DNA of 64,000 bases from assembly GCA_902789665.1 (NCBI GenBank), contig CADAOY010000006.1, positions 17,238-81,237 on the forward strand, read 5' to 3'. Shown piece by piece: positions 9,991 through 50,835 of this stretch. The position numbers and the translations under genes were made by a program. Within the stretch, counting starts at the first letter, position 1, and every line of letters begins with the position of its first letter. The notes below the pieces were generated by a model. That model did not search any database. It was not told where the DNA came from and saw only the letters and a list, made by a program, of their open reading frames with translations. This DNA comes from an uncultured Lachnospiraceae bacterium. Its GTDB lineage: Bacteria; Bacillota; Clostridia; Lachnospirales; Lachnospiraceae.

Positions 9991-10162
9991 CCGCCCCTCA
10001 CCAAAAACTACTCTTCGAAGCTCATTGCAGCAAGCTGCACAGGATCGCTTCTCAGAGCATTTTTGTCTCGGGGCGTGGGTTGTGAGAGCAAGGACAAAAT
10101 GCTCTCCAAAAAGCGATTTGGTGACTTGCACCACTGAGCTTTTGGGAGAGTAGTTTTGGACG
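9991..10162. repeat. Dispersed hairpin repeat, locus A: two copies in inverted orientation
   Basis: Copy A1 (10001-10066, forward) and copy A2 (10093-10160, reverse) are about 67 bases each and face each other, so the locus is itself a long imperfect inverted repeat. Each copy folds alone: an outer stem of CAAAA..TTTTG and CTCT-type segments, and an apical hairpin (A1: TGCAGC-AA-GCTGCA; A2: TGGTG-CAAGT-CACCA). A1 has an 11-base arm segment on both sides where other copies have 13. A 100-codon open frame across it on the - strand is taken as chance. Confidence 0.85.
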
Positions 10163-10186
10163 AAGCTCGAGCTATGAAAGGGACAA

Positions 10187-10363
10187 ATGTTAGATATAAA
10201 AGTAGACGACATAGTTACATTTAAGAAAAAACACCCTTGCGGGGGAAAAGAGTGGAAGGTGCTGAGGACGGGAGCTGATTATAAGCTTGAGTGCACCACA
10301 TGTAATCATCAGATTATGATTACGAGAGCCACTCTGGAAAAAAGCCTTGCAAGAAAAGGATGA
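10187..10363 (+). CDS. DUF951 small protein
   Basis: This 58-residue gene starts MLDIKVDDIV and carries the family hallmark KKHPCGGKEW at about residues 14-23, then CTTCNHQIM. DUF951 proteins occur across Firmicutes, commonly just before rpsF, as here. The cysteines (Cys18, then Cys36-x2-Cys39) may bind metal. AAAGGG precedes the ATG by 5 bases. Function unknown. Confidence 0.88.
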   Translation: MLDIKVDDIVTFKKKHPCGGKEWKVLRTGADYKLECTTCNHQIMITRATLEKSLARKG

Positions 10364-10381
10364 ATGTGATATATTTAAAGT

Positions 10382-10418
10382 CCGTAGTGTAATTTCCTTG
10401 CTCGTATTATGTGTACGG
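10382..10418 (+). promoter_or_regulatory. Possible leader hairpin before rpsF
   Basis: CCGTA (10382-10386) and TACGG (10414-10418) can pair 27 bases before the rpsF start. In many bacteria the S6-S18 complex binds a leader hairpin in this place; I cannot confirm that motif here. Confidence 0.25.
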
Positions 10419-10444
10419 GCCAGAGACCAAAAGGAGGTAAACAG

Positions 10445-10735
10445 ATGAACAAGTATGAATTAGCCGTTGTTATTAGCGCTAAGGCTGATGACGAAGCGAG
10501 GGCTGCATCTTTAGAGAAGTGTAAAAAACTTATCGAAAGATTCCAGGGTACAATTACTGACGTAAATGATGCCGGAAAGAAGAAATTAGCTTACGAGATT
10601 CAGAAGATGAACGAAGCTTACTATTACTTCATCCAGTTCGAAGCTCCAGCAACAGCTCCAGCTGAGATTGAGCATCGTGTTCGTATTGTTGAAAATGTCA
10701 TCAGATTCTTAGTTGTTAAAGCAGACGAAGAATAA
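10445..10735 (+). CDS. rpsF: 30S ribosomal protein S6
   Basis: The 96-residue sequence begins MNKYELAVVIS and has the S6 ferredoxin-like pattern, with YYFIQFEAP and a final IRFLVVK strand. AAGGAGG lies 8 bases before the ATG at 10445; an in-frame upstream ATG at 10409 would read through this site and is rejected. It heads the classic rpsF-ssb-rpsR operon. Confidence 0.97.
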   Translation: MNKYELAVVISAKADDEARAASLEKCKKLIERFQGTITDVNDAGKKKLAYEIQKMNEAYYYFIQFEAPATAPAEIEHRVRIVENVIRFLVVKADEE

Positions 10736-10749
10736 GAAATGAGGCAATT

Positions 10750-11181
10750 ATGAACAAAGTAATTTTAATGGGTCGTCTTACTAAGGACCCAGTTGTAAAT
10801 AGTTCAGCAAACGGTAGTGTAGTAAGATATACTTTAGCAGTAGACAGGAGATTCACAAAGAAGGATGATCCTAATGCTCAGACTGCTGATTTTATCGGCA
10901 TTGTTGCTTTTGGCAAGAGCGCTGAATTTGCTGAAAAGTATTTTCACAAAGGAACTAAAGTAGTTGTTACCGGACGTATTCAGACCGGTAGCTATCAGAA
11001 AGATGGTCAGACCATCTATACAACTGACGTAGTAGCAGAAGATCAGGAATTCGCAGAGAGCAAGAATGCTCAGGGCGCTTCCGGAGCAGCAGCACCTTCA
11101 CAGGGCGGCGGCGCACCGGTTGACGATGCAGGATTTATGAATGTTACAGACGGAGCAGTTGATGATGTGCCTTTCATCTAA
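10750..11181 (+). CDS. ssb: Single-stranded DNA-binding protein
   Basis: The 143-residue protein has the OB-fold N-terminus (MNKVILMGRLTKDP..) and a Gly/Ala/Pro-rich linker. SSB C-termini normally end in an acidic tip closing with Pro-Phe, used to recruit repair and replication proteins. Here the tip reads VDDVPFI, so one Ile follows the Phe. It lies between the S6 and S18 genes, as is usual. Confidence 0.96.
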   Translation: MNKVILMGRLTKDPVVNSSANGSVVRYTLAVDRRFTKKDDPNAQTADFIGIVAFGKSAEFAEKYFHKGTKVVVTGRIQTGSYQKDGQTIYTTDVVAEDQEFAESKNAQGASGAAAPSQGGGAPVDDAGFMNVTDGAVDDVPFI

Positions 11182-11202
11182 GGATTAATATAGGAGGCAA
11201 TT

Positions 11203-11466
11203 ATGGCATTCGTTAAAGCAGATAAAGCAGATGCTTCTCAGAGAAGAAGAGGCAATGCACATAGAAGAAAAAAAGTATGTGTATTCTGCGGTAAAGATAA
11301 TGTAATTGATTATAAGGATGTAGCTAAGCTTAAAAGATACGTATCAGAGAACGGTAAGATTCTTCCTAGAAGAGTAACCGGTAACTGTGCTAAGCATCAG
11401 AGAGCAATCACAGTAGCTATCAAGAGAGCTCGTCATATCGCTCTTATGCCTTATGTTTGTGATTAA
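11203..11466 (+). CDS. rpsR: 30S ribosomal protein S18
   Basis: The 87-residue basic protein contains [14 protein letters not shown] and the C-terminal [11 protein letters not shown] typical of S18. It retains a CxxC pair, so it is the zinc-binding (C+) type at that site. AGGAGG precedes the ATG. It closes the rpsF operon and is followed by a terminator. Confidence 0.97.
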
Positions 11467-11489
11467 TTAATTTGATTAATAGGAATATA

Positions 11490-11522
11490 GACCATTGCTT
11501 TATGCAATGGTCTTATTTTTTT
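11490..11522 (+). terminator. Rho-independent terminator after rpsR
   Basis: GACCATTGC and GCAATGGTC form a 9-bp stem with a 5-base loop, followed by a T-rich tract. Confidence 0.9.
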
Positions 11523-11596
11523 ATTAGAGGGTAGAACAATTATAAGAAAAATGCTATAATAAATTTGATTTTGTTGTTTTTCTTAAGGAGAAATTA

Positions 11597-13633
11597 ATGG
11601 CAAGAAGCAATAAGATAAAAACAAGAATGCATTCTTATATAGTGATATCTGTTTTGCTGGGGATTTTGCTTGGTGTAATAGATTTCTGGTTATATGTGCT
11701 TGATTACAAGGCCGGAATAATGGTTTCCATCTTTCTGGTGATTTATTTCGTGGCAATTTTATCATTCTTTGCATATTCCAAGAAGTTTATCATTAAGGAA
11801 ATGGTTGATTTTGCCACCCAGTACGGGCAGGTACAGAAGCAGATTCTTAATAAACTGGAACTTCCGCATGCTTTATTAGACACTACGGGCCGTATACTTT
11901 GGATGAATGAGGAATTCCAGAAGATTACAGAGAAACAGGCTTCATATCATAAGAATATAGCGACGATTTTCCCTGAGATTAATGAGGATGTGCTTGACAA
12001 GGAAAGAAGCAATACAGAAATCGAGTACGAGACTCAGGATTTCAGAATCGTAACACAGCGTATTGTGGTTGACGATTATGTGGATAATGAATTTTTGGAA
12101 GAGACAGATGATTACAATGTAATTATCGGAATATATCTCTTTAATGAGACAGCTCTTAAAGTTGCCTTAAGAGAGAATGATAACCAGTCTCTTGCAGTAG
12201 GACTTTTATATCTGGATAACTGCGACGAAGTTTTGGAGGGTATTCCGGATGTTAAGCAGAGCCTGCTTCTTGCTTTGATAGACAGACGTATCAATAAGTG
12301 TATTGCAAACCTTGATGGTATTGTAAGAAAACTGGAGAAGGATAAGTATATTATTATTCTTCGTAAGCAGTCAGTTAATCTCTTGAAAGAGAAGAAGTTT
12401 GAGATTTTAGAGGAAGTTAAAACTGTTACTATCGGTAACGAAAGACCGATTACTCTTAGTATTGGTATTGGACTTGACGGACTTAGTTATGCTCAGAATG
12501 CGGAATTCGCAAGAGCGGCTATCGACCTTGCTCTCGGCCGTGGTGGTGACCAGGCGGTTGTTAAGGTTCCAAATCAGGTTCAGTATTTCGGTGGTAAGAG
12601 AGAACAGATGGAGAAGAGTACAAGAGTTAAGGCGAGAGTTAAAGCCCAGGCTCTTGAAGAGATTCTTACCAATAAAGATCAGATATTTGTAATGGGACAC
12701 AGACTTGGTGATGTGGACAGCTTCGGTTCAGCCGTAGGTATTGCATGTATCGCAAGACATATGCAAAAAGAGATACATATCGTACTTAACGATATCACTC
12801 CTTCACTGGCGCCGGTTGTTGATTTATATAAGTCACAGCCTGATTATCTTGAAGGCACAATCATGACAAGTCAGCAGGCTTTGGAAGCAGTTGGTTCCAA
12901 TGCGGTACTGGTTGTTGTGGATATTAATAAGCCGTCCATTACTGAATGTCCGGATCTTTTGAAGAAATGTAAAGCAATTGTAGTTTTGGATCACCACAGA
13001 CAGGGAACCGAAGTAATTGATAATGCGACTCTTTCATATATTGAGCCATATGCATCATCAGCCTGCGAAATGGTATCCGAAATTCTGCAGTATATAGCAA
13101 ATGGAATCAAAATCAGCGGCATCGAAGCTGACTGTATGTATTCAGGTATCGTAATTGATACCAATAATTTCACAACCAAGACCGGTGTAAGAACTTTTGA
13201 AGCAGCAGCTTATCTTAGAAGAACCGGTGCAGATGTTACCAGAGTTCGTAAGCTTTTCAGGGAAGATGCTTCAGAATATATGGCCAAGGCCAGAACCATC
13301 AGGGATGCATATATTTACAAGAACGATTATGCCATCTCAATCTGTGATGGAAGCACATGTCAGAGTCCTACAATTGTTGCGGCTCAGGCAGCAAATGAAT
13401 TACTTAATATCATTGGCGTTAAGGCAAGTTTCGTATTCGTTGAATACCAGAGCAGGATATACTTAAGCGCCAGATCAATTGATGAACTTAATGTTCAGGT
13501 TATTACAGAAAAACTTGGAGGCGGCGGACACATGAACGTTGCCGGTGCTCAGTTTACAGGTATTACCTGTGAAGAAGCAGCAGAAAAATTAAAAGAAGTA
13601 CTTGATAAAGAAATCGAGAGTGATGAGGTGTAA
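11597..13633 (+). CDS. gdpP: GdpP/YybT-type cyclic-di-AMP phosphodiesterase
   Basis: This 678-residue membrane enzyme hydrolyses cyclic di-AMP. Two membrane helices lie within residues 12-60, then a PAS-like region (about 85-155), a degenerate GGDEF-like domain (about 195-325), and a DHH/DHHA1 unit. Metal ligands include GHRLGDVDS (367-375) and DHH (465-467); GGGGHMNVAGAQ is the DHHA1 signature near the C-terminus. Length and order match B. subtilis GdpP. It ends 3 bases before rplI, an order conserved in Firmicutes. Confidence 0.95.
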   Translation: MARSNKIKTRMHSYIVISVLLGILLGVIDFWLYVLDYKAGIMVSIFLVIYFVAILSFFAYSKKFIIKEMVDFATQYGQVQKQILNKLELPHALLDTTGRILWMNEEFQKITEKQASYHKNIATIFPEINEDVLDKERSNTEIEYETQDFRIVTQRIVVDDYVDNEFLEETDDYNVIIGIYLFNETALKVALRENDNQSLAVGLLYLDNCDEVLEGIPDVKQSLLLALIDRRINKCIANLDGIVRKLEKDKYIIILRKQSVNLLKEKKFEILEEVKTVTIGNERPITLSIGIGLDGLSYAQNAEFARAAIDLALGRGGDQAVVKVPNQVQYFGGKREQMEKSTRVKARVKAQALEEILTNKDQIFVMGHRLGDVDSFGSAVGIACIARHMQKEIHIVLNDITPSLAPVVDLYKSQPDYLEGTIMTSQQALEAVGSNAVLVVVDINKPSITECPDLLKKCKAIVVLDHHRQGTEVIDNATLSYIEPYASSACEMVSEILQYIANGIKISGIEADCMYSGIVIDTNNFTTKTGVRTFEAAAYLRRTGADVTRVRKLFREDASEYMAKARTIRDAYIYKNDYAISICDGSTCQSPTIVAAQAANELLNIIGVKASFVFVEYQSRIYLSARSIDELNVQVITEKLGGGGHMNVAGAQFTGITCEEAAEKLKEVLDKEIESDEV

Positions 13634-13636
13634 GTT

Positions 13637-14083
13637 ATGCAGGTTATTTTATTACAGGATGTTAAATCTTTAGGCAAAAAAGGTGACATGCTTGAAATCA
13701 ATGACGGATATGCAAGAAATTATATAATTCCAAAGAAACTGGGAGTTCCGGCTAATGAGGCCAACAAGAACGACCTTAAACTTCATAAAGCCAACGAGGC
13801 CAAAATCGCAAAGGAAAATCTTGAGGCAGCCAAAGAACTTGGTGCAAAGATTGAGAAGGTCAGCGTAAGCGTTCCGATTAAGGTTGGTGAAAACGGCAGG
13901 GCTTTTGGCGCAGTTACAGCTAAGGAAATCAGTGATGCTCTGGATAAACAGTGTGGCATTAAAGTTGATAAGAAGAAGATTCAGCTTAAAGAAGCAATCA
14001 AAGCGGTCAGCGAGGCAGATGTACCTGTTAAGTTACACCCTGAAGTAACTGCCTTACTTAAAGTTAAGGTAGTGGCAGAATAA
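13637..14083 (+). CDS. rplI: 50S ribosomal protein L9
   Basis: The 148-residue protein has the L9 N-terminal signature (MQVILLQDVKSLGKKGD..), DGYARNYIIPKKL at about residues 24-36, a long central helix and a C-terminal domain with FGAVTAKEI. Full length for the family. It lies between gdpP and dnaB in the conserved order. Confidence 0.97.
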   Translation: MQVILLQDVKSLGKKGDMLEINDGYARNYIIPKKLGVPANEANKNDLKLHKANEAKIAKENLEAAKELGAKIEKVSVSVPIKVGENGRAFGAVTAKEISDALDKQCGIKVDKKKIQLKEAIKAVSEADVPVKLHPEVTALLKVKVVAE

Positions 14084-14106
14084 TAACATTTCGGGGGATA
14101 AATGAA

Positions 14107-15450
14107 ATGGATGACAATGTAGTAAACAGGGTGATTCCTCACTCTACGGAAGCCGAGCAGAGTGTAATCGGCGCCATGATGGTTGATAATGAAGTTATCT
14201 CTGTGGCAGCAGATCTGATTACGGGAAGCGACTTCTATAATAAACAATATGGAATAATTTTTGATACAATAGTTGAGCTGAGTGCCCAGCATACTGATAT
14301 AGATATAGTAACATTAAGGGAAGCACTGAAAGCCAAACAGCTTCCGGAGGATGTTTGTTCAGTAGAATATATTAAGGACTTTGTAGTTAATGTACCGACA
14401 GCAGTTAATATAAAGTCATATGCCGAAATAGTCAGGGAAAAGAGTGACAGAAGACGTGTTATTCGTGCGGCTGAGAAGGTAGTCACAAGGGGCTACGAAG
14501 ATAATGACAGCATCATGGATTATAAGGCAGAGTCCGAGAAGGCTTTATTCGAAGTTTTTCAGGACAGGGGCAATGCTGAATTTGAGAGTATAACATCTGT
14601 AGTTTCAAGAGCTCTGGATGATATATATAAAAGATATAAGAATGATGGTGAACTTACCGGTCTTAATACCGGCTTTACCAAACTTAATTCAATGACAGCA
14701 GGTCTTCAGAAGTCAGACCTCATTCTTATTGCGGCAAGACCTTCAATGGGTAAAACCGCCTTCGCTCTTAATATTGCACTTAATGTGGCATTAAGAGAGA
14801 GAAAGACGGTTGCATTATTCTCTTTGGAAATGTCCAAGGTTCAGCTGGTTAACCGTCTTATTGCCATGGAGTCCAAGGTAGATTCCAAGAAGATAAGAGA
14901 AGGTTCAATATCAGATGAATCTGAGTGGGCAAAACTGGTTGAAGGTAGTGCTGAGGTTGGAACGGCAAAGCTTTTTGTAGATGATACAAGTAGTATCAGT
15001 GCTCAGGAAATCAGATCAAAGTGTCGTAAGTTAAAACTTGAACAAGATTTGTCACTGGTAGTAATCGACTACTTACAGCTTATGTCAGGTAATGGCAAGT
15101 CAGACAGCAGACAGCAGGAAATCTCAGAGATATCAAGATCCCTTAAGTCTTTGGCAAGAGAACTGGACATTCCTGTAATTGCACTTTCGCAGCTTAATCG
15201 TGCAGTTGACTCGAGAGCTGATCACATTCCTGTACTTGCAGACCTCCGTGAATCCGGTGCCATCGAGCAGGATGCGGACGTTGTAATGTTTATTTACAGG
15301 GATGATTATTATACAAAAGAAAAGTCAGAAAGACCTAATGTGGCAGATATTATTATAGCTAAACAGCGTAACGGCCCGGTAGGAACCGTATCACTGGCAT
15401 GGCTTCCAAGTTTCACTCAGTTCTGCGATCTGGAAGTTGATAAAAGCTAA
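14107..15450 (+). CDS. dnaB: Replicative DNA helicase
   Basis: The 447-residue hexameric helicase unwinds DNA at the fork. It has the N-terminal domain beginning IPHSTEAEQSVIGAM, Walker A ARPSMGKTAFAL, and the RecA-like segments VVIDYLQLM and ALSQLNRAV with an arginine-finger region near the C-terminus. GGGGGAT lies before the ATG. Its probable loaders (DnaD- and DnaI-like) are encoded at 52.1-54.2 kb. A bidirectional terminator follows. Confidence 0.97.
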   Translation: MDDNVVNRVIPHSTEAEQSVIGAMMVDNEVISVAADLITGSDFYNKQYGIIFDTIVELSAQHTDIDIVTLREALKAKQLPEDVCSVEYIKDFVVNVPTAVNIKSYAEIVREKSDRRRVIRAAEKVVTRGYEDNDSIMDYKAESEKALFEVFQDRGNAEFESITSVVSRALDDIYKRYKNDGELTGLNTGFTKLNSMTAGLQKSDLILIAARPSMGKTAFALNIALNVALRERKTVALFSLEMSKVQLVNRLIAMESKVDSKKIREGSISDESEWAKLVEGSAEVGTAKLFVDDTSSISAQEIRSKCRKLKLEQDLSLVVIDYLQLMSGNGKSDSRQQEISEISRSLKSLARELDIPVIALSQLNRAVDSRADHIPVLADLRESGAIEQDADVVMFIYRDDYYTKEKSERPNVADIIIAKQRNGPVGTVSLAWLPSFTQFCDLEVDKS

Positions 15451-15474
15451 TAAAATTTAACAAATTTTAAATAC

Positions 15475-15501
15475 AAAAAAAGCAGCCTTACGGCTGCTTT
15501 T
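15475..15501. terminator. Bidirectional terminator between dnaB and the ferredoxin gene
   Basis: AAAAGCAGCC and GGCTGCTTTT pair around a 4-base loop, with A and T tracts on the two sides, so it can stop both convergent transcripts. Confidence 0.88.
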
Positions 15502-15522
15502 AAATTTAACTTTATTAATTAA

Positions 15523-15693
15523 TTATGCTTCTGTGATAGCACCTGCTGGACATCCGTCTGCACATGCGCCACAACCTAAACAAGCGTCTGCATCGATAAC
15601 GTACTTATCTTCGCCTTCTGAAATAGCTTCTGCAGGACACTGAGCTGCGCAAGCACCACACTGAATACACTCATCTCCGATTTGATATGCCAT
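15523..15693 (-). CDS. 2[4Fe-4S] ferredoxin
   Basis: This 56-residue electron carrier has two perfect CxxCxxCxxxCP clusters, with ligands Cys9/12/15/19 and Cys38/41/44/48. It begins MAYQIGDECI and ends PAGAITEA, the usual clostridial 8-iron form. GGAGGTATTTACC precedes the ATG. It is transcribed divergently from the DUF1858 gene and convergently with dnaB. Confidence 0.96.
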   Translation of the reverse strand: MAYQIGDECIQCGACAAQCPAEAISEGEDKYVIDADACLGCGACADGCPAGAITEA

Positions 15694-15750
15694 GGTAAAT
15701 ACCTCCTTATAAAAGTATTATAAATCAACTTCGCCAATCTACGGTTACAT

Positions 15751-15778
15751 AATATATCAAAAGTTTCGAGTTAGTCAA
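15751..15778 (-). promoter_or_regulatory. Promoter of the ferredoxin gene
   Basis: On the - strand, TTGACT (15773-15778) and TATATT (15751-15756) are 16 bases apart, about 58 bases before the start codon. Confidence 0.55.
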
Positions 15779-15788
15779 CGCTAATTGC

Positions 15789-15816
15789 TTGACTTATGGC
15801 TTTTTTTTCATATAAT
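15789..15816 (+). promoter_or_regulatory. Promoter of the DUF1858 gene
   Basis: TTGACT (15789-15794) and a perfect TATAAT (15811-15816) are 16 bases apart, 42 bases before the start codon. It is back to back with the ferredoxin promoter. Confidence 0.7.
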
Positions 15817-15857
15817 TATTCATTAGGGAATGGGGACTGAGGAAAGGAGATAAAGAC

Positions 15858-16052
15858 ATGATATTTACTAAAGATATGACAATCGCTGAAATGATTACTG
15901 CAAATCCTGATGTGGTGCCTATTTTACTTAATGCTGGTATGCATTGTATTGGCTGCCCGTCTGCTATGGGTGAGACAATTGAGGAAGCTGCAATGGTTCA
16001 CGGACTGGATGCTGATATGCTTCTTGAAGATATAAATGAACTTTTAAAATAA
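15858..16052 (+). CDS. DUF1858 redox-disulfide domain protein
   Basis: The 64-residue protein is a complete stand-alone DUF1858 domain. [22 protein letters not shown] is followed by a CxxC pair (Cys30, Cys33) in HCIGCP. The family is described as a hybrid-cluster-protein-associated redox disulfide domain. GGAGATAAAG precedes the ATG. Its divergent pairing with a ferredoxin suggests a redox role, but no partner is proven. Confidence 0.85.
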
Positions 16053-16073
16053 TAAATCTTTATTTATAAATAA

Positions 16074-16105
16074 AAAGAGAGTAGGAAATGATAATCCTAC
16101 TCTCT
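16074..16105. terminator. Bidirectional terminator between the DUF1858 gene and the MecA-like gene
   Basis: AAGAGAGTAGGA and TCCTACTCTCTT form a perfect 12-bp stem with an 8-base loop. T residues flank both ends, between convergent genes. Confidence 0.9.
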
Positions 16106-16130
16106 TTTATGTTTCAGGCTTAAGCCTATT

Positions 16131-17171
16131 TTACAACTGGCTTAGGACTTCGAGCGCATTTTCTTCAATCATTAAAGTATAATTGTTCTTGTTGAAGTTT
16201 GCTAATCTGTCCTTGTATGAATATTTGACGGAGCGGGCATTTTTCAAAAATCTTGAAAAATTCGCATTCTGGTTTAACTGCACTGTAGGGCAGTAAACAT
16301 CGAGTACGTATAATTTCTCGTTCTCGTCCTTGTAAAGATTGGAACGATAATGTATAACTTCAGAATTCTTTAACTTGCCGGCTCTGTCGATGAGCTCGCT
16401 TAAGATGCCGTATCTGATGGTAACTATCATCTTGTAGTCGCGGCTGTCGTCTAAAAGTACGTTGGCCTGCTCGCTGGTGGCAGCGTTGGCAACATTATAG
16501 GCAGCCTCTAAATTCTCTTTGCTGATGGACTGATTTCTGTCTTCAGCAGGAGGCATGAAATCAAGTTTTGACGGACGCTTAAGAGCGCTTATGGATTCTG
16601 AATCATTATCATCTTCATCATCGTCCTCGAAGTCGTCATCATAATCGTCATCATCTTCATCGTCTTCGTCATCTTCAAATGGAAGTTTGAAGGACTCGTT
16701 CAAAATATTCGCCAGGGTTTCCAATATTGCATTTATGCTTTCTCCGATAAGATTCGGATCCAAGTTTGATAAATCTCCCGGATTAATTGGAATTGCCTGT
16801 TTATTGTTACCATCAAAAAGCTCTATTTTAATATTAGGTATTATTTCGCCTGTTTTTGCTGAATTATCGTTAAGATTATTTAAGTTAAGCTTGGTTCTGT
16901 TAAGGCATCTCGCCAAATCCGCAGGCGAGTTGATTCTTGTAAATGTAAGCTTAAATGATAATTCATCCTGAGGTTTCATCTCGATGACCAGGTTGTTGGT
17001 GGACATATCTGTTCCGTATTTCTCGCTGGCCTTCTGAAGAATTGTCTTAACCAGGCTCTGAACACCTTCGTTATCCATACTCAGATTGTTAGGAGTAAGC
17101 CCGTAATCAGCCAGTTCTTCAATACTAATAATGCATACAACAGTATTGGAATTTTCTAATGAAATTTGCAT
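16131..17171 (-). CDS. MecA-like adaptor protein with a large acidic insertion
   Basis: From the ATG at 17171 (AAAGGAGG 8 bases before it) the protein has 346 residues. The N-terminal 80 residues and the C-terminal 90 (about VIHYRSNLY to EENALEVLSQL) resemble the two halves of MecA, the adaptor that brings substrates to ClpC. MecA proteins are usually 220-250 residues; here a central low-complexity segment of about 30 nearly continuous Asp/Glu residues and extra linker account for the difference. The assignment rests on pattern similarity and is moderate. It has its own promoter and a shared terminator. An upstream in-frame ATG at 17249 lies in the promoter. Confidence 0.6.
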   Translation of the reverse strand: MQISLENSNTVVCIISIEELADYGLTPNNLSMDNEGVQSLVKTILQKASEKYGTDMSTNNLVIEMKPQDELSFKLTFTRINSPADLARCLNRTKLNLNNLNDNSAKTGEIIPNIKIELFDGNNKQAIPINPGDLSNLDPNLIGESINAILETLANILNESFKLPFEDDEDDEDDDDYDDDFEDDDEDDNDSESISALKRPSKLDFMPPAEDRNQSISKENLEAAYNVANAATSEQANVLLDDSRDYKMIVTIRYGILSELIDRAGKLKNSEVIHYRSNLYKDENEKLYVLDVYCPTVQLNQNANFSRFLKNARSVKYSYKDRLANFNKNNYTLMIEENALEVLSQL

Positions 17172-17220
17172 TGGACATCCTCCTTTATTTTTTTTGGTAG
17201 TATTTGATATACGCGAGTAC

Positions 17221-17249
17221 ATTTTACCATAAAAAAGGCCTCTAAACAA
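17221..17249 (-). promoter_or_regulatory. Promoter of the MecA-like gene
   Basis: On the - strand, TTGTTT (17244-17249) and TAAAAT (17221-17226) are 17 bases apart, and TGG directly before the -10 makes it an extended -10. Confidence 0.6.
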
Positions 17250-17759
17250 TACTATATTTGTTTTTTAAAGTGCCGGAAAGTCCCGTAAATCAAGGCTTTG
17301 AGAGAATGCTTAAAAAAATTGGTAATTTTTACCATAGATTCTAAAAAGTGTAACTGATATATTGATTATGCAAGGCCTCTGAAATCCATGTGCCGGAAAG
17401 GAGGTCGATATTAATCTATTTAAAATTCACAATTTATTAGGTTGTCTTACTAAACTTAAAATATAGTAATGCCAATCCTAATACTAATCAACAATTAACT
17501 ATCATACAAAAATTAACTATCATACAAATCGTTTTTTATATATAATTAATTATTTTATATTATTTTTTTGTCTAAATGCGTAAGCATTCATTTTTCAGAT
17601 TCGATTCAGAATTTGAGATCCCAAATTAAAATTAGCATTCAGAGTCCTTGTGATGTTGTCAAAAAAGGAAATTTTACTACGAAGTCCTTTTGGTATTTTA
17701 AGGCTGCACCAAGAAAACCCTCGAGTTGTGTAGCAGTAAAAAATTAAAAAATAAATATA
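17250..17759. other. Gene-free AT-rich region with local duplications
   Basis: No coding frame is supported here. A segment with AAGGCCTCT followed by GTGCCGGAAAG occurs twice (17235-17280 and 17372-17400) with different spacing between the two words. A perfect 18-bp tandem repeat (AATTAACTATCATACAAA) occupies 17493-17528. A small hairpin AATGC-GTAA-GCATT lies near 17575. It may be the remnant of a lost element; nothing identifies which. Confidence 0.6.
17493..17528. repeat. Perfect 18-bp tandem repeat, two units
   Basis: AATTAACTATCATACAAA occurs at 17493-17510 and immediately again at 17511-17528 without mismatch. Confidence 0.9.
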
Positions 17760-17788
17760 ATGACGATATCCTGATTATTTGTTATAAT
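17760..17788 (+). promoter_or_regulatory. Promoter of the GH18-like gene
   Basis: ATGACG (17760-17765) and a perfect TATAAT (17783-17788) are 17 bases apart, 45 bases before the start codon. Confidence 0.5.
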
Positions 17789-17833
17789 GGGGACGGTTGG
17801 TTTTAGACCGGAATTGATAGGAGGAGAATTATA

Positions 17834-19612: not shown

Positions 19613-19614
19613 AT

Positions 19615-20694: not shown

Positions 20695-20707
20695 GGAGAT
20701 TAGTAAA

Positions 20708-21139: not shown

Positions 21140-21162
21140 TTTGTAAATGGGGGATTAAGGCT

Positions 21163-21648: not shown

Positions 21649-21663
21649 CAATCTAAAAGGTGT

Positions 21664-22863: not shown

Positions 22864-22887
22864 TGTGTTGCACTTTTGTTTACACCG

Positions 22888-22932: not shown

Positions 22933-22949
22933 AAAGGAGGAATCTTCAA

Positions 22950-36563: not shown

Positions 36564-36651
36564 TCGTACTGTATCAATTGACATTATCGCAAGATAAAAG
36601 TAAAATATAAAAGGTTTTTTATAAGTTAAGTAGCTTTTTAAGGAAGGTGTA

Positions 36652-39807: not shown

Positions 39808-39832
39808 TTTTTAATTTGATGGAGGATTAGTA

Positions 39833-42502: not shown

Positions 42503-42519
42503 TTAATTGCAAAATATAT

Positions 42520-42541
42520 GCCCGGAGTGGTTGCTCCGGGC
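42520..42541 (+). other. GC-rich hairpin after glgP
   Basis: GCCCGGAG and CTCCGGGC form a perfect 8-bp stem with a 6-base loop. No T tract follows, so it may stabilise the 3' end rather than terminate. Confidence 0.5.
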
Positions 42542-42574
42542 GTAGTGCGTAAATAGACAGTAAGGAGACAGTAA

Positions 42575-44854
42575 ATGGTAGAGTTATTTGATAATGGCGC
42601 TTACCTCATTAAGGGCCAGTTAATTGATGAAAAGAACCAGGCTGAAGTTAATGCAGCTGCAGGAGTGGAAGTTAATAAGGAAGAGGCTAAGAAGAATACA
42701 ATCGCTTATGGTATTCTTAATTCTCATAATACTTCAGGTAACATGGACAAGCTTAAAATCAAATTCGATAAGCTTACAAGCCATGATATTACTTTCGTAG
42801 GTATTATTCAGACAGCAAGAGCATCAGGTCTTGAGAAATTCCCAATCCCTTATGTTCTTACAAACTGCCATAACTCTCTTTGCGCAGTAGGTGGAACAAT
42901 TAATGAAGATGACCACATGTTTGGTCTTACATGTGCCAAGAAATATGGCGGTGTATATGTACCACCTCATCAGGCTGTTATTCACCAGTTTGCAAGAGAA
43001 ATGCTTGCAGGCGGTGGCAAGATGATTTTAGGTTCTGACTCACATACCAGATATGGTGCGCTTGGTACCATGGCAATGGGTGAGGGTGGCCCTGAACTTG
43101 TTAAACAGCTTCTTAATCAGACATATGATATTAATATGCCGGGCGTGGTTGCAGTATATCTTGAAGGCGAGCCTGTTAAGGGTGTAGGTCCTCAGGACGT
43201 TGCCATTGCCATTATCGGAGCAGTATTCAAAAATGGATATGTAAAGAATAAAGTAATGGAATTCGTAGGCCCTGGTGTTGGTAAACTGTCGGCAGATTTC
43301 CGAATCGGTGTTGATGTAATGACAACAGAGACAACCTGTCTTTCATCAATCTGGCAGACAGATGAGATAATCGAGGAATTCTACGATATCCACGGAAGAA
43401 GAGATGATTATAAATATCTCACACCTGGCGATGTTGCATACTATGATGGCGTAATTAAGATTGACTTATCAACCATCAGACCTATGATTGCAATGCCATT
43501 CCATCCAAGCAATGCTTATACAATTGAAGAGTTCAATGCAAATATGATGGATATCATTGATATTACAGAGAAGAAGGCGCTTGAGAGCCTTGATGGCGCT
43601 GTAGAATACAGCTTAAAGGATAAGGTTAGAAACGGTAAGTTCTATGTAGAACAGGGTATTATCGCAGGCTGTGCAGGCGGTGGATTCGAGAATATCTGTG
43701 CTGCGGCGGATATTTTGGAAGGCAATTATATCGGAAGCGATGCCTTTACAATGAGCGTTTATCCTGCATCAATGCCAATTTACATGGAATTAATCAAAAA
43801 TGGCACAGCGGCCAAAATCCTTGCTTCAGGTGCTGTGCTTAAGACTGCATTCTGTGGTCCTTGCTTCGGCGCCGGTGATACACCTGCCAATAATGCATTC
43901 AGTATCAGACATTCTACAAGAAACTTCCCTAACAGAGAAGGTTCCAAACTTCAGAATGGTCAGATTTCTTCTGTAGCATTAATGGATGCCAGATCAATTG
44001 CTGCAACAGCTGCCAATAAGGGCGAACTTACTGCGGCTACTGATTTTGCAGGAGATTTCAAAAAATATAAATATTACTTTGATTCAAGCATCTATGCTAA
44101 CAGAGTATATGATTCCAAGGGCGTGGCTCATCCTGAGGTTGAGATTCAGTTTGGTCCAAATATCAAGGACTGGCCGGCAATGTCACCACTTCCGGAGAAT
44201 CTTTTACTTAAGGTTGTTTCAGAGATTCATGACAGCGTAACAACAACTGATGAGCTTATTCCATCAGGTGAGACATCTTCATACCGTTCCAATCCTATTG
44301 GTCTTGCTGAGTTTGCATTATCAAGAAAAGACCCTGAATATGTAGGCAGGGCAAAAGCTATCCAGGTAGCTCAGAAGGCGCTTGAAAAGGGCGAGTGTGC
44401 AGGTAAGGCTGTACCTGAGGTTGCTGAGGTTATGAAGGTTGTTAAGGAGATGTTCCCTAATGTGGATCATGATAATCTTGGCATTGGTTCCACAATCTTC
44501 GCAGTTAAGCCGGGTGACGGTTCTGCTAGAGAGCAGGCTGCAAGCTGCCAGAAAGTACTGGGCGGCTGGGCTAATATTGCCAATGAATATGCTACAAAGA
44601 GATACCGCTCCAACCTCATTAACTGGGGTATGATTCCATTCTTAATTAAGGAAGGTGAACTTCCATTTAAGAACCTGGATTTCATCTTTGTACCTGATGT
44701 TAAGAACGCAATTCTGGAAAATAGAAGCGAAATTCAAGCATTTGTGGTTAAAGACGGCAAAATGAACGAATTTACACTAGGTCTTGGGGAACTCACAAAT
44801 GAAGAGAGACAGATTATTCTTAAAGGCTGTTTAATTAATTACAACAGAATTTAG
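42575..44854 (+). CDS. Aconitase-family hydratase (YbhJ-like)
   Basis: The 759-residue protein has aconitase-type iron-sulfur ligands: NCHNSLC near residue 107, and the CxxC pair in [19 protein letters not shown] and the C-terminal swivel domain are also present. It differs from citrate-cycle aconitase in start and motif detail and resembles YbhJ-type hydratases of unknown substrate. AAGGAGACAG precedes the ATG. A role in the citrate pathway should not be assumed. Confidence 0.85.
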
Positions 44855-44911
44855 AGTTCGTGTCATAATTTTCTTAATTCGTGTTTATACTATTTTAATA
44901 TTTTTAAAAAG

Positions 44912-45275
44912 TGGTATAGTAGTAAATGTAAACAGAACATTGATAATTTAACCAAGATATTTTTCTTAAGATTTAATTAGAAGAAGTTATTGGATAGAAG
45001 GAATAAGTAATATTCTTAGAACGGATTTTGATCTTCCACCCATTCAAATGTTAGTGACCATTCAAAATTCTGTACCGGAAGAAAGAATGAAGTAATAAGA
45101 ATAGAACTTAGGAATTCTTGAAGGAATGGATTTTAGTTAAACTTAAGAATGATTTCTAAAGTTTAAGTTATTAATGTAAATATTTTTAACCGGTGACCTA
45201 ATCCGTATCGCCGGTTGTAAAAAGGAAACAGCAATAGATCCTTGATGATCATCTCTAGTGCCGTTTCCTTTTTCC
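44912..45275 (+). ncRNA. Candidate structured non-coding RNA (about 350 nt)
   Basis: An extended -10 (TGG then TATAGT, 44912-44920) is followed by about 300 bases with no supported reading frame and then three successive hairpins: TTAAACTT/AAGTTTAA (45137-45166), AACCGG/CCGGTT (45188-45216), and a perfect 11-bp stem AAAAAGGAAAC/GTTTCCTTTTT (45219-45273) ending in a T-rich tract. A stem TCTTCC/GGAAGA near 45033-45085 and a direct repeat CCATTCAAA (45040, 45058) lie inside. No known RNA family is recognised; a long leader of the serpin gene is the alternative. Confidence 0.4.
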
Positions 45276-45424
45276 TTTTCACTATTTCTTTGTCAGCCGC
45301 CAGCTATCGTCTTACTGGCCCCACGAGATGTCATAAATAAATATTTAAAAATTTCCCCATAAATTTTAATATAATATTCGTATATGTAATAGATGATACG
45401 AAAAACCTTTGTTTAGGAGGAATT

Positions 45425-46798
45425 ATGAAGAAAAAAATATTAATGGGCATGACAGCAATGATGGTATTAATGTCACTTACAGGATGCAGGCTTACTCCAC
45501 CGCAGCCACTTAATCAGCAGTCAAATCAGCAGGCTGTAGTAAATCCGTCTATTGATGATGAATTAGATGAAACCGATCTCAGACCTGATGTGCTTACAGA
45601 TGATGAAGAAAAAATGATGGGTGATGTAGATACTTATCATGATAATGATCCGGATATTAATAAATGTCTGTCAAACGCAGCTTTCAGACTTCTTAGTGAG
45701 GTGGAGCCAAACGATGCCGGTAATGTGCTGATTTCTCCATATTCAATTGATTCAGCCCTTGGCATGACAGAGTTCGGTGCTGAAGGTGAGACAATGAGAC
45801 AGCTTGAGGCCACTGTTAATGGAAATGCAGATGTTTATGGCATGGCTCAGTCATTAAATATAATCAGAGAGAAAATGGAATCCCAGGAAGATGCAAAGTG
45901 GAATATTGCAAACTCCATCTGGATGAAAGACAGGGATGATGTAAGTTTAAGAGACGGATTCTTAAAGGATGTAGATGTATTTTATGGCGCGGAGATTTAT
46001 ACAGAGCCTTTTGACAATAGCACTAAAGATAAAATCAACGGCTGGGTTGATGAACAGACCAATCACATGATTCCTCAAATTATTGAGGAGATTAATCCTA
46101 ATGCAATCAGCTATCTGGTTAATGCAGTTGCTTTCGAGAGCGAATGGTATGAACAGTATGAAGAAAGCGCAATCAGAGATAATATGGAATTTACCAACGC
46201 TGACGGCAGCGTAAGCGATGTTACAATGCTCTATAGTACAGAATCTGACAGCTTTGAATATGCAGGTTCCCTTGCTTTTGCAAAGCCGTATAAAGGTGGA
46301 GATTACTACTTCGTGGGAATAGTACCTGGTAATGACGGATATGAAATTAAAGATGAAAGCGTTGAGGAATATTTACAGAAAATGGTTGAATGTCCGGATG
46401 ATTTTACCAGAGCTTTCCTTAACCGTACATCCGATCCACAGGTTGATGTAATGATTCCGGAGTTCACAATGGATTACGATACAAAGTTGGCTGATACATA
46501 TAAGGAAATGGGCATGACAGTTCCATTTGACGAAAATCAGGCTAACTTCCGTAACATGTTTGATGCAGAGGGTGAGCATTATTTCTGGATTAATGAGATT
46601 ATCCACAAGACACACATAGAAGTTGACAGACAAGGCACAAAGGCTGCGGCAGCCACAGTAGTTGAGATGGCTGAATGCTCAGCAGTTTACGAGCCTGTTC
46701 AGAATTACAGAGTATATATGGACAGACCTTTCGTTTATGCAATCGTTGACGGCGAAACAGGAATGCCAATATTTGTAGGATATGTAAATAATCTTTAA
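45425..46798 (+). CDS. Serpin-family lipoprotein
   Basis: The 457-residue protein has a lipoprotein signal (MKKKILMG.., lipobox LTGC, Cys21) and a serpin fold (VLISPYSIDSALGMTEFGA; FVYAIVDGETGMPIFVGYV). The reactive-loop hinge GTKAAAAT (404-411) has small residues, as in inhibitory serpins. If the standard 17-residue count holds, P1-P1' would be Cys418-Ser419. Such a protein would sit on the outside of the membrane and trap serine or cysteine proteases. AGGAGG precedes the ATG. Confidence 0.92.
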   Translation: MKKKILMGMTAMMVLMSLTGCRLTPPQPLNQQSNQQAVVNPSIDDELDETDLRPDVLTDDEEKMMGDVDTYHDNDPDINKCLSNAAFRLLSEVEPNDAGNVLISPYSIDSALGMTEFGAEGETMRQLEATVNGNADVYGMAQSLNIIREKMESQEDAKWNIANSIWMKDRDDVSLRDGFLKDVDVFYGAEIYTEPFDNSTKDKINGWVDEQTNHMIPQIIEEINPNAISYLVNAVAFESEWYEQYEESAIRDNMEFTNADGSVSDVTMLYSTESDSFEYAGSLAFAKPYKGGDYYFVGIVPGNDGYEIKDESVEEYLQKMVECPDDFTRAFLNRTSDPQVDVMIPEFTMDYDTKLADTYKEMGMTVPFDENQANFRNMFDAEGEHYFWINEIIHKTHIEVDRQGTKAAAATVVEMAECSAVYEPVQNYRVYMDRPFVYAIVDGETGMPIFVGYVNNL

Positions 46799-46826
46799 TC
46801 AGCCAGTAACCCCCATTTCACAAAAT

Positions 46827-46869
46827 AAGAAGGACCCCCGTACCTTAGGTATCGGAGGCCCTTCTTTTT
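46827..46869. terminator. Bidirectional terminator between the serpin gene and thiT
   Basis: AAGAAGG..CCGTACC and GGTATCGG..CCTTCTT form a long stem with a TTAG-type loop and T tracts on both sides, between convergent genes. Confidence 0.85.
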
Positions 46870-46885
46870 AGTTTCGTATTATTAA

Positions 46886-47746
46886 TTATTTTTCGCCCTT
46901 AGCTTCTTCAAGCGCTTTCTTTTGCTGCTTGAAATGAGCTAATGTTAATGTTGCTGTAGCAATTACTGCACATACAACTGTTACAATAAGGATAAGCATC
47001 CAGTTGGTGCTTGCAAGACCTGAAAAATCAAACTTACCTGTATCAGGATTCTGAAGATTTGCAAAAATCATTCTAACGTCAAAAATCAGTGCCGCAGCGA
47101 TAGCTAAACCGCCTGTCCACTTGAGCATAGGAACTTTGGTCTTCTCTGTCTGCTTCATGTGCTTGATGGTTGGCTCTCTGAAATCAAGGAGTGAGCCGAG
47201 GTAGAATGCCATAATTGCGGTAACTACTGTCTCAGGAAGCATATATGTTGCATTGTATCCGAAGGAATACAGAAGTGCGGCGCTGTCAGGAATTGATAAT
47301 CCTGCCCATACCGTTGCACCTGAGATAACGTGGCATGCATATCTTAAAATACATACGAAGATTGTGCCGGCAACAAGGGCTGCAGGCTGTGATTTGATCA
47401 ACTTTCTGAAGATACCTCCAAGACCCAGTACGGTAAAAGCGATGATATAATCTAGGAAAATAACCGCCAGTACAGACTGCCAGGTTGTTACATATGAAAG
47501 ATTCTTAAGTCCCAGTAACTGCTGAATAATAGCAAAAGCCAGGCCGGTAATAAGACCGTTTTTAATGCCGTGACGGTAGGAAATAAGAATGATTGGCAGC
47601 ATGGATGCCACCGTAACCGAACCGCCGTATGGCAGGTCGAGAATCTTAACAAAGGAAAGTACTGTTGCCACAGCCAGCATCAGGCCGGCTTCAGTCAGTA
47701 CTCTTGTGGTTGAAATAGGTGAATTGTTGTCTTTCTCTTTTGACAT
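46886..47746 (-). CDS. thiT: Energy-coupling-factor thiamine transporter substrate subunit
   Basis: ThiT binds thiamine in the membrane and works with the shared ECF module. The protein has about six core helices with the family start TEAGLMLAVATVLSFVKIL and a YGGSVTVASMLPI loop, and further on WAGL and YNATYMLPE, which contribute to thiamine binding. At 286 residues it is longer than usual ThiT (about 190), with an extra C-terminal helix and a charged tail. A TPP riboswitch lies upstream. AAGGAGG precedes the ATG. Confidence 0.9.
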   Translation of the reverse strand: MSKEKDNNSPISTTRVLTEAGLMLAVATVLSFVKILDLPYGGSVTVASMLPIILISYRHGIKNGLITGLAFAIIQQLLGLKNLSYVTTWQSVLAVIFLDYIIAFTVLGLGGIFRKLIKSQPAALVAGTIFVCILRYACHVISGATVWAGLSIPDSAALLYSFGYNATYMLPETVVTAIMAFYLGSLLDFREPTIKHMKQTEKTKVPMLKWTGGLAIAAALIFDVRMIFANLQNPDTGKFDFSGLASTNWMLILIVTVVCAVIATATLTLAHFKQQKKALEEAKGEK

Positions 47747-47769
47747 AAAAAAACCTCCTTAACATATGG

Positions 47770-47867
47770 AGGGGACTGTAAAGAATGCTTCCTTACGCCG
47801 GAATTACCCGGTTCAAGTGATGAGGGTTAGATAGGTATTTCTATCAGTCTCAGCAGATGCTCCCCTA
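47770..47867 (-). promoter_or_regulatory. TPP (THI-box) riboswitch of thiT
   Basis: Read on the - strand, it has P1 AGGGGA, the CTGAGA element, an extra stem with GAAATACC, ACCCT, then TTGAACCGGGTAATTCCGGC and GGAA, closing with TCCCCT. These are the conserved TPP-binding segments. It lies directly before the ribosome binding site of thiT, so thiamine pyrophosphate probably represses the transporter. Confidence 0.95.
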
Positions 47868-47962
47868 GCTAAATAATATTTGGTTATTACCAAATGATAT
47901 TATATGTAAATACAGGGAAAAAAACAAGTATAAAATTTCATTATTTATTTTTTGTTATTTTC

Positions 47963-47991
47963 TTGACAAACTTCCTTAATTATGGGATTAT
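47963..47991 (+). promoter_or_regulatory. Promoter of the DegV gene
   Basis: A perfect TTGACA (47963-47968) and GATTAT (47986-47991) are 17 bases apart. Confidence 0.55.
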
Positions 47992-48036
47992 GTGAGTGCT
48001 TGTCGTATTGTTTGAATAATATAAAAAGGGGCTTTT

Positions 48037-48894
48037 ATGAATAATTATAAAATTTTCATTGATGCATCATGTGATGTTGATCCGGAAGTAATAAAAAAAG
48101 AAGACATAGGCGTTATTCCTATGAGTTATATTTTAGGCGAAGAGGAAAAAGTAAGTTACGCCAATGAGACACCTGAGGAGATTCATGCTTTTTATGATGC
48201 ATTAAGAGAAGGTGTTAATGTTTCCACCAGTCAGATTTCACCAATAGTATATGTTGATATGTTTAAACCTGTACTGGAGGCTGGTCAGGATATTCTATAT
48301 ATATGCTTATCAAGCGGTTTGACCGGTACTTATTCTGCAGTTAATGTAGTAGTTGAAGATCTTAAGGAAGATTATCCGGACAGAACCATCGTAGCTTACG
48401 ACAGCCTTGCTGCAACAATTGCAACAGGTTTAATTGTAGAAGAAGCTGTTAAAAACAGAGCTGCAGGTATGGGCCCTGTGGAGAATGCAGAAGCCCTTAA
48501 GGTTAAGAGAGAATCATTATTCACCATGTTCCTGGTTGAAGATTTAATGCATCTCAAGAGAGGCGGACGTATCTCAGAGGTATCAGCTGTACTTGGTACC
48601 GCTCTTAAAATTTGCCCTATCCTCAATATCGGTCTTGATGGAAAACTTAATGTAATTGCCAAGAAAAGAGGAGAGATGGCAATTAAATATCTTCAGAGCG
48701 AATTTAATGCAAGCTGCGCTCCTGACTGTAAGAGAATATATGTAACTCATGCAGATAATACAGAGAGAGTTAATAAGCTTGTTGAACTTGTTAAGGAATC
48801 CCGTCCGGATATTGATGTGGTTGTCAGCACTCTGTGCCCAATTATCGGTGCTCATACAGGTCCTGACATGACAGCGGTTATTTGCTGGAAATAA
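48037..48894 (+). CDS. DegV family fatty-acid-binding protein
   Basis: The 285-residue protein has the DegV pattern: IFIDASCDVDPEV, then VSTSQISP with the fatty-acid carboxylate loop, SSGLTGTYSA, and LKRGGRIS. FakB/DegV proteins present fatty acids to the FakA kinase. No FakA is in the window. It is a single gene with its own promoter and terminator. Confidence 0.93.
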   Translation: MNNYKIFIDASCDVDPEVIKKEDIGVIPMSYILGEEEKVSYANETPEEIHAFYDALREGVNVSTSQISPIVYVDMFKPVLEAGQDILYICLSSGLTGTYSAVNVVVEDLKEDYPDRTIVAYDSLAATIATGLIVEEAVKNRAAGMGPVENAEALKVKRESLFTMFLVEDLMHLKRGGRISEVSAVLGTALKICPILNIGLDGKLNVIAKKRGEMAIKYLQSEFNASCAPDCKRIYVTHADNTERVNKLVELVKESRPDIDVVVSTLCPIIGAHTGPDMTAVICWK

Positions 48895-48913
48895 TAAAAT
48901 TTAGTATAATATA

Positions 48914-48947
48914 AACGTCCATCACATACAGGTGAATGGGCGTTTTT
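48914..48947 (+). terminator. Terminator after the DegV gene
   Basis: ACGTCCAT..CA and TG..ATGGGCGT pair with one G-T pair and a bulge, followed by TTTTTT. Confidence 0.8.
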
Positions 48948-48975
48948 TATAAATTTGGGAAAGGAGGTTTAACCA

Positions 48976-49641
48976 TTGAGCAAAATAAAATATAAACAAA
49001 TAAGTAAAGGTTTTAAACGTTTTTTCTGGGGACAGAATACAGCTGTTATTGCGGCTATAGTCAGTATTGTGCTGGTGCCGGTGATTTTTATATTTGGTAA
49101 CAGATGCGGAGCTCTTGACATGCCGGGTGCTTTCAACTTTCTCATAAGGTTGATTTTAATTGCGACTTTATTTTATGCTTTTACAACACACAAGTTATTC
49201 CTCCTTCAGGCAGCAACAGTAGGACTTTTGTTCTGCATGCTCAGCGCGCAGTCACAGTATGCTCTGGGGGCTTTGGCCACAACAGATTCGGAAGTGTACA
49301 TTACCATGGGTCTTCAGGGATTTATATTTTTAGCCGGTGAAAGAATGCTGTTATTTATTCAGTGTTTTATCTGCGTCGGTCATTTTGTCATACATTCTGC
49401 CAAGAGGCAGGTTGCAATCAGAGTTTCATTAAATCAGATAGCCCTTTTATTCCTGCTGGGGCTTTCCTTTGTTCAATTGGTGATTTCGCCATTTCTTACA
49501 TTTGCACCAACATATGTATTCTATATTTGGACATCTCACCTGGAGGAATTCTTTATCTTCCTTCTTATTGCGTGTGCTGAACTTGTTCTGGTAGTTGATG
49601 GAAAAGAACTGGGAGGAGGAATGTCGAATGTCAGCAAATAA
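48976..49641 (+). CDS. Unrecognised six-helix membrane protein
   Basis: The 221-residue protein has about six hydrophobic segments and a basic N-terminus (MSKIKYKQISKGFKR). The start is a TTG with AAGGAGG 8 bases before it; no ATG is suitably placed. I do not recognise a family. It overlaps the next gene by 14 bases, so the two products are probably made together and may form a membrane complex. Confidence 0.75.
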   Translation: MSKIKYKQISKGFKRFFWGQNTAVIAAIVSIVLVPVIFIFGNRCGALDMPGAFNFLIRLILIATLFYAFTTHKLFLLQAATVGLLFCMLSAQSQYALGALATTDSEVYITMGLQGFIFLAGERMLLFIQCFICVGHFVIHSAKRQVAIRVSLNQIALLFLLGLSFVQLVISPFLTFAPTYVFYIWTSHLEEFFIFLLIACAELVLVVDGKELGGGMSNVSK

Positions 49642-50608
49642 GCCAAAGGCAATCTGGTTTCTCTTTACCACAATGCTTTCCATTTTCAATATATGTACAA
49701 TTCAGATTTTTGCTGGGCTGACATGGTCATTCTATGCGGTGACAATTAATGCGCTCCTGTCCTTGGGAGGTCTTATTCTGCAGCTTCATGTAGAACCTAA
49801 AGACCAGAAGAGAAAGGCGTTGATTCCACTGCATGTAATTTTATGGGTTAATTCCGTTTCCGTATTCCTGATGATGGGATTAAGTCTCTTTACACTTGAA
49901 AGCCAGTATCATAACTTCCTTAGAACTGATGCGAAGATGACTGGTCCTGTTGACATGGAGGCTTTGCATGCGGCTTCCGATGATCCGGTAACATTAGTGG
50001 AAACTGATGATTTTTATGTTTTTTTGGTAGAAGATTATAATGATATAGATTTTGTGGCAGGTGACAGACCATCCAGAAAAGATGAGTCGATTCAGCTTTG
50101 CATTGCCGCTGCTTTCCAGGCTTCATATGAAGTAGGTTTCAGACATGATAATGTTGTAGGCTGGCATACATCTGATGAGGGTCTGCAGCAGGGTACTCCT
50201 TTGGATGGTCTTGGCGGATTTACCTACGTGGACGGAGTCGGGGCTATCTGGGATACAGATGAGTCTGCAGATGCAATAAAAGAAGCCTCCGAAAAGGGAG
50301 GCTGTGGTTTTCAGCAGTTTATTGTTTTGTGCGATGGAGTGCACGGAAGTCATACCACCGGAGAATTCAGATGCTTCCGCGTTGTTGCAGTTGTGGACGG
50401 AGAGGTTCTTGTTATTGATTCCCGTACACAGATGCATTACGAGGAATTCGTTGATGCGCTGATAGATTATGGCATTAAGGATGCCATTTACTGTGATATG
50501 GGAAGTGGCTGGAATTATTCGTGGTATCGTTCCAGAAGCGGAAGACCTCTTGAAATCATAGGCTCTCCGTGGCCATTCTCACATAACTGGCTGGTATTTA
50601 AGAAATAG
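49628..50608 (+). CDS. Membrane protein with a phosphodiester-glycosidase-like (NAGPA) domain
   Basis: From the ATG at 49628 (GGAGGA 7 bases before it) the protein has 326 residues. Three membrane helices lie in the first 100, then an extracellular domain. Segments such as FRCFRVVAVVDGEVLVIDSR, then MHYEEFVDALIDYGIKDAIYCDMGSG, resemble the strand-helix-strand with DGGGS of the NAGPA/phosphodiester glycosidase family, with MGSG instead. The similarity is distant. It overlaps the preceding membrane-protein gene. The hairpin repeat lies downstream. Confidence 0.6.
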   Translation: MSANKPKAIWFLFTTMLSIFNICTIQIFAGLTWSFYAVTINALLSLGGLILQLHVEPKDQKRKALIPLHVILWVNSVSVFLMMGLSLFTLESQYHNFLRTDAKMTGPVDMEALHAASDDPVTLVETDDFYVFLVEDYNDIDFVAGDRPSRKDESIQLCIAAAFQASYEVGFRHDNVVGWHTSDEGLQQGTPLDGLGGFTYVDGVGAIWDTDESADAIKEASEKGGCGFQQFIVLCDGVHGSHTTGEFRCFRVVAVVDGEVLVIDSRTQMHYEEFVDALIDYGIKDAIYCDMGSGWNYSWYRSRSGRPLEIIGSPWPFSHNWLVFKK

Positions 50609-50629
50609 TATATTCGCCCAAAACTTGCA

Positions 50630-50835
50630 CTACGCTACTCGCACTGCCTCCAAAACTACTCTCCCCAAAGCTCATTACAGCAAGCTGTACAGGTTCGCTT
50701 TGTGGAGAGCATTTTGTCGTTGTGCTCGTTATCACATTTTGACCTCGCGCTTCCTCCAAAACTACTCTCCCCGAAGCTCATTACAGCAAGCTGTACAGGT
50801 TCGCTTCGTGGAGAGCATTTTGTCCTCGCGCTCGG
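50630..50835. repeat. Dispersed hairpin repeat, locus C: two copies in direct orientation
   Basis: Copies C1 (50649-50718) and C2 (50755-50835) are 106 bases apart and nearly identical. Both have the apical hairpin TACAGC-AA-GCTGTA. In the outer stem C1 has AAAGC with GCTTT, and C2 has GAAGC with GCTTC, a compensated base-pair change. CCTCGCGCT flanks C2 on both sides (50743-50751 and 50824-50832). An open frame across the locus is considered chance. Confidence 0.88.

Follow-up and report, generated by a model that had tools for sequence, protein, structure and literature searches.

A dispersed, covarying hairpin repeat that differs between two sister Lachnospiraceae species

The window analyzed here is a 64,000-nt stretch within contig C6 of the genome of an uncultured Lachnospiraceae bacterium (G000; 2.25 Mb in 10 contigs, judged 91.5% complete). 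A hairpin-forming sequence recurs between its genes, and the copies differ from one another by paired changes. A sequence-only reading had taken it for a REP/MITE-like or 3′-UTR RNA element of about 70 bases, with selection acting on the folded form. This raises the question of what kind of element it is and how it came to be dispersed. The copies were therefore located in this genome and its relatives, their fold and covariation were evaluated, and their sites were compared with those of a sister species (G022, assembly ~84% complete).

Copies in the Window and Subfamilies

Five copies and one fragment were confirmed at the positions first reported, all between open reading frames (ORFs). When the copies were aligned with their flanks, conservation extended past the ends first given. 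The size of ~70 bases missed the outer stem; the true unit was an imperfect hairpin of ~90–94 nt (~90–100 nt overall), comprising four stems with conserved internal loops between them. The outer stem occurred in three pairing types, GCGC/GCGC, GCAC/GTGC and GCCCC/GGGGC. Three subfamilies, whose names are our own, differed in stem sequence and kept their complementarity:

Subfamily A: CCAAAAC, mostly with a GCGC-type outer stem
Subfamily B: GCTCCCC..CAAAAAC, with a shorter inner stem
Subfamily C: GCTGCC..CTTAAAAC and GGCAGC

The copies in the window were as follows:

9990..10079, + strand: element copy of subfamily B type (shorter inner stem, GCCCC/GGGGC outer stem); not in the sister genome
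10080..10171, − strand: element copy of subfamily A type with a GGTG/CACC apical stem, inverted beside the 9990..10079 copy; not in the sister genome
36434..36525, − strand: element copy of subfamily A type with a GGTG/CACC apical stem; common to the sister genome
36536..36561, + strand: fragment, right arm alone; the site has no fragment in the sister genome
50638..50731, + strand: element copy of subfamily A type with a GCAC/GTGC outer stem; common to the sister genome
50744..50837, + strand: element copy of subfamily A type with a GCGC outer stem, a direct repeat of the 50638..50731 copy; common to the sister genome

The copy already described as having shortened arms was that at 9990–10079, whose inner stem lacked two bases per arm. 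The copies at 10093 and 36447, as first delimited, were inverted relative to the other three. On the alignment strand, all five copies folded with z values of −3.2 to −5.9, and 0 or 1 of 200 dinucleotide shuffles folded as well. The left-arm motif alone, with two mismatches allowed, was not rarer than chance (8 in the window vs. 7.1 expected), and the right-arm motif was found 7 times vs. 2.6 expected, a number reached by 1 of 100 shuffles.

Two other features were observed in the same region. The 337-aa ORF upstream of the last two copies (49595–50608, +) matched no Pfam or NCBIfam family at E 0.001. A TPP riboswitch over the Rfam gathering score was located at 47773–47876 (−), upstream of the same-strand ORF 46886–47746.

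Nested arrangements were found outside the window. At L089 and L093, a subfamily B element was nested within one of subfamily C. The two composites shared 88% identity over 142 nt, which cover the inner element and the outer arm on the right; their left outer arms also aligned. Another nested arrangement was present at L096.

Copy Number and Distribution

A BLAST search of the own genome with one copy gave 22 places, one of which was the fragment. The covariance-model search that had been proposed as a check did find further copies: there were 22 clear copies, 17 of them outside the window. Its 40 rows represented these 22 strong places, 17 readings of the same places on the opposite strand, and one divergent place (E 0.0024). 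At the divergent place, the AAAACTACTCT and AGAGCATTTT arms were retained around a middle part that differed, and the sister genome had a counterpart of this place. In the sister genome there were 18 strong places and eight opposite-strand readings, as well as the divergent place.

Strong matches were restricted to these two among the 31 genomes of the genus, and model R1, run over 41 relatives, likewise gave matches in G000 and G022. Weak single matches occurred in four other genus genomes (E 3.9e-4 to 0.09): those in G023, G004 and G044 had E values of 0.02–0.09, and the one in G009 (E 3.9e-4) read as an unrelated hairpin. Among 392 genomes of the order, searched with strict filters and 10 candidates scored per genome, nothing was recovered beyond the own genome and, in G211, a single weak match that also read as an unrelated hairpin. 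An exact-pattern scan of genome contigs, from which records resembling the own genome were possibly excluded, returned only Lachnospiraceae bacterium UBA4338, which matches G022, with 11 stretches. Phage and plasmid collections contained no match to window 50600–50860, and viral contigs had no exact pattern match. A word search of the open-access literature found no description of the element.

Covariation and Fold

Covariation between the arms was borne out in the 21 copies aligned from the own genome: 16 of 30 pairs had changed on both sides, and 88.7% of the 612 cells were paired. On each of five measures, all 500 shuffles fell short, a comparison to be read with the caveat that relatedness among sequences can be enough to outdo such shuffles even where there is no structure. 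When the 3′ partners were slid by 1–3 columns, pairing fell to 31–51%. The four-stem structure was drawn by hand after the predicted folds of the same 21 copies had been viewed; the fit is thus partly by construction, which the shuffles and slid registers answer only in part. When the copies of both genomes were aligned together (40, of which 39 were distinct), double changes appeared in 17 of 30 pairs and 106 cells, and again 0 of 500 shuffles reached any measure. The partial copy L080:3933 was dropped before this alignment (A5), and the divergent member and the fragment stood outside A3 and A5.

Some pairs spoke against a simple reading of the structure. Pairs 26–70, 27–69 and 28–68 were unpaired in 11/39, 21/39 and 11/29 distinct copies, and the outermost three pairs were unpaired in 18, 21 and 26 of the 39. 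Pairing of the arms was nevertheless copy-specific through the outer stem (−9.15 vs. −7.57 kcal/mol; 0 of 2000 permutations), and pairing of the flanks past it was tested and found unsupported. The ends of the unit were therefore placed at the outer stem.

One internal loop read CTA/CA in 38 of the 39 distinct copies and ATA/CA in the remaining one, so an A–C mismatch beside a T–A pair was invariant (39/39). On the other strand this mismatch is a G–U, and in the two copies tested the other strand folded more stably (−38.6 vs. −29.8 and −37.9 vs. −31.0 kcal/mol). Wobble cells in the stems (28 G–U vs. 17 A–C) left the strand unsettled.

Covariation stood, and selection as its forced conclusion did not, because paired changes can also arise through subfamily descent, conversion between copies and template switching. 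It is plausible that the covariation reflects selection on the folded form. The invariant mismatch speaks against arm-homogenizing processes acting alone, since those should erase mismatches. Taken together, the covarying stems and the invariant mismatch suggest that the fold is read by some factor, which may be a transposase or an RNA-binding one.

Comparison with the Sister Genome

Of the 31 aligned stretches longer than 250 nt between the two genomes, 27 had 90.9–98.9% identity, and the other four had 89.6, 86.6, 80.5, and 68.9%. Seventeen of the 23 own copies were compared; C3:60121, C3:197795, C3:207680, C3:210843, C8:44153, and C8:44305 were left out. Eight were common to both genomes (window 36434, 50638, and 50744; C9:35700, C3:273057, C2:80807, C2:243806, and C3:323225), three had a different version in the sister (C9:38284, C1:374351, and C1:30152), and six were missing from it (window 9990 and 10080; C6:15120, C9:37135, C3:294149, and C3:299845); at single sites, this comparison of two genomes without an outgroup does not distinguish loss from gain. 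The missing copies were often the only change at the site, and the inserted stretches often extended 7–25 nt beyond the hairpin. The C3:294149 copy was lacking together with ~1 kb adjoining it. The three sites with a different version could reflect conversion rather than insertion.

In the reverse comparison, C15:127504, C7:73126, C6:242467, C13:22754, and C14:109505 of the sister genome were left out, and three of its copies were absent here: C16:57030 and C11:70622 had empty counterparts, and C9:67069 corresponded to other repeats. Shared sites differed as well. The spacing between the 50638 and 50744 copies was smaller in the sister genome, and at C2:80807 the apical stem differed by a paired change, C–G here and A–T in the sister, a difference that may have come about by compensation at the site or by conversion.

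Some differences between the two genomes were noted in passing. A ~1 kb block at L088 (3996–5002), which includes ORF sequence and has an element copy at one of its ends, and a stretch of ~147 nt with inverted repeats at L087 (1671–1818), unlike the element in appearance, were present here and missing from the sister, the latter at the same site. A third repeat at L115 (3285–5132), consisting of CCCCGGSACCCCACCCA followed by variable sequence, formed an array of seven copies spaced in part by 40–58 nt, and the array differed between the two species. The region of query L095 had no long match in the sister genome.

Genomic Context and Rival Explanations

Across both genomes, 28 of 41 copies were located between tandem genes, 12 between convergent genes and one between divergent genes, and 20 of the 28 tandem copies were oriented as the upstream gene and eight the opposite way; these counts are from crude ORF calls, with orthologues counted twice. 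Such a placement behind genes, together with covarying stems and invariant loops, would suit a functional 3′-UTR RNA element, whose hairpin is kept to protect or process transcript ends and whose copies spread long ago. We consider this explanation unlikely. Six of the 17 compared copies were missing in a close sister, often as the sole change at the site, and the eight opposite tandem copies do not agree with it either. The wobble counts gave no transcript strand, and the invariant A–C becomes a G–U on the strand that was the more stable in two copies. No Rfam family was found at the copies, either over the window at the gathering threshold or at four loci with E up to 1, and the genes adjoining the window copies, among them those for a Sir2-family deacylase, a DUF951 protein, nicotinate phosphoribosyltransferase, isoleucine–tRNA ligase and a phosphoribosylpyrophosphate synthetase-like protein, showed no common theme. 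Among the forms that a mobile origin may take is a REP-type element whose mover is a RAYT (Y1 HUH transposase) encoded in these genomes now or formerly. The element is a folded palindrome with conserved mismatches, 38 of its 39 distinct copies have CTAC (GTAG on the other strand), and each genome contains one Y1_Tnp gene. The presumed link to a RAYT was not supported: in both genomes the gene was surrounded by a different repeat, of the GGGACGG type, and not by the element. This second dispersed repeat, GGGACGGGG..GTGCATC, often forms inverted pairs and flanks the RAYT gene (L098 2792–4795); it was found at 55 sites in the own genome and 37 in the sister at up to two mismatches (control 0), and it is probably that RAYT's own REP. 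The two Y1_Tnp genes were only 66% alike over 559 nt, their neighborhoods did not align, and Y1_Tnp genes occurred in 17 of the 31 genus genomes vs. two for the element. A RAYT is thus an unlikely mobilizer because the flanking repeat is different and the distributions do not match. The form of the element also departs from that of REPs: these are palindromes of 20–50 nt with GTAG (or CGTC) unpaired at the hairpin foot, whereas the element is ~90–94 nt long, two to four times that length, with CTAC/GTAG at an internal loop and, in many copies, CGTC at another. Both assemblies are incomplete (91.5 and ~84%), and hence a second RAYT gene may be missing from them; a RAYT may also act on the element in trans. 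The REP-type explanation as a whole seems improbable.

Small size, ends that are inverted repeats, and presence/absence differences are also what a classical MITE would show, i.e., an insertion sequence reduced by deletion that keeps the terminal inverted repeats of its parent and is moved by a DDE transposase. We regard this as very improbable. No element arm was found flanking a gene: apart from the copies already known and the fragment, matches to exact arm patterns (subfamily A only for the right arm) occurred at four places in the two genomes, each in a stop-free frame of 132–209 codons and apparently coding. Target-site duplication was not consistent at the polymorphic sites examined, with one possible imperfect case of ~12 nt at C9:37135. 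An integron attC-like recombination site would likewise lie behind genes and fold as an imperfect palindrome with some bases left unpaired, and one copy (L088) was present or absent jointly with an adjacent ~1 kb block. This identity was set aside as extremely improbable: neither genome has an integron integrase over the TIGR02249 cut-off, matches below it occurred here as in all 14 control genomes, and the copies are dispersed without a cassette array.

What remains of the earlier REP/MITE-like proposal is a dispersed, structured and covarying element that has many more copies and differs in presence or absence between sister species, without the RAYT link. We think it probable that this is a lineage-specific, non-autonomous mobile palindromic element, spread by a putative trans-acting mobilizer that reads the folded strand. 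Such a mobilizer would recognize the element as a folded single strand, making contact at the invariant mismatch, the bulge and the apical loop; for the stems, pairing would be the main requirement. New copies would land in intergenic DNA, where most of those that persist would lie shortly after stop codons. Once resident, a copy would probably be transcribed with the upstream gene and affect mRNA ends incidentally at most. Against this reading stand the inconsistent target-site duplications at the junctions and the failure to find a candidate mobilizer gene, the only Y1_Tnp gene of the own genome having a repeat of its own. A more speculative version, quite unlikely in our judgment, is that the mobilizer belongs to a class that has yet to be connected with palindromic repeats, sees only folded single strands and prefers existing hairpins, so that nested composites would spread as units.

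Relation to Known Repeats and Significance

The element is dispersed, intergenic, folded as a single long hairpin, restricted to one lineage and polymorphic between relatives, and by this description it is a new member of the palindromic intergenic repeats of the ERIC/bcr kind. The bcr1–3 repeats of the Bacillus cereus group are called similar to MITEs, with copies transcribed in UTRs (PMC3446304); as described there, they are interspersed, intergenic and belong to one bacterial group, and the present element, known from DNA alone, is likened to them by description. A survey of stem-loop families includes ERIC and the 93-bp Clop-1 of Clostridium perfringens (PMC2267715). The element resembles these in description, being a single long hairpin of ~100 nt, intergenic, with tens of copies, but it belongs to another genus and has subfamilies with alternative stems. 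In Escherichia coli REPs, stem mismatches are reported to be conserved and needed for recognition, and some REP dimers to lie inside longer palindromes (PMC3733652; PMC8266576). According to the same sources, REPs are palindromic and located near 3′ ends, mainly where the neighboring genes are in tandem or converge, as is the element; unlike them, it is ~90 nt long, has its GTAG off the hairpin foot and does not flank the resident RAYT genes.

In the collections searched, the family occurs in two sister species alone, and the two differ in their copies. With its separate subfamilies and nested arrangements, it offers a compact case for studying the spread of palindromic intergenic repeats that lack an obvious transposase, and the same case bears on whether paired changes reflect recognition of the folded strand.
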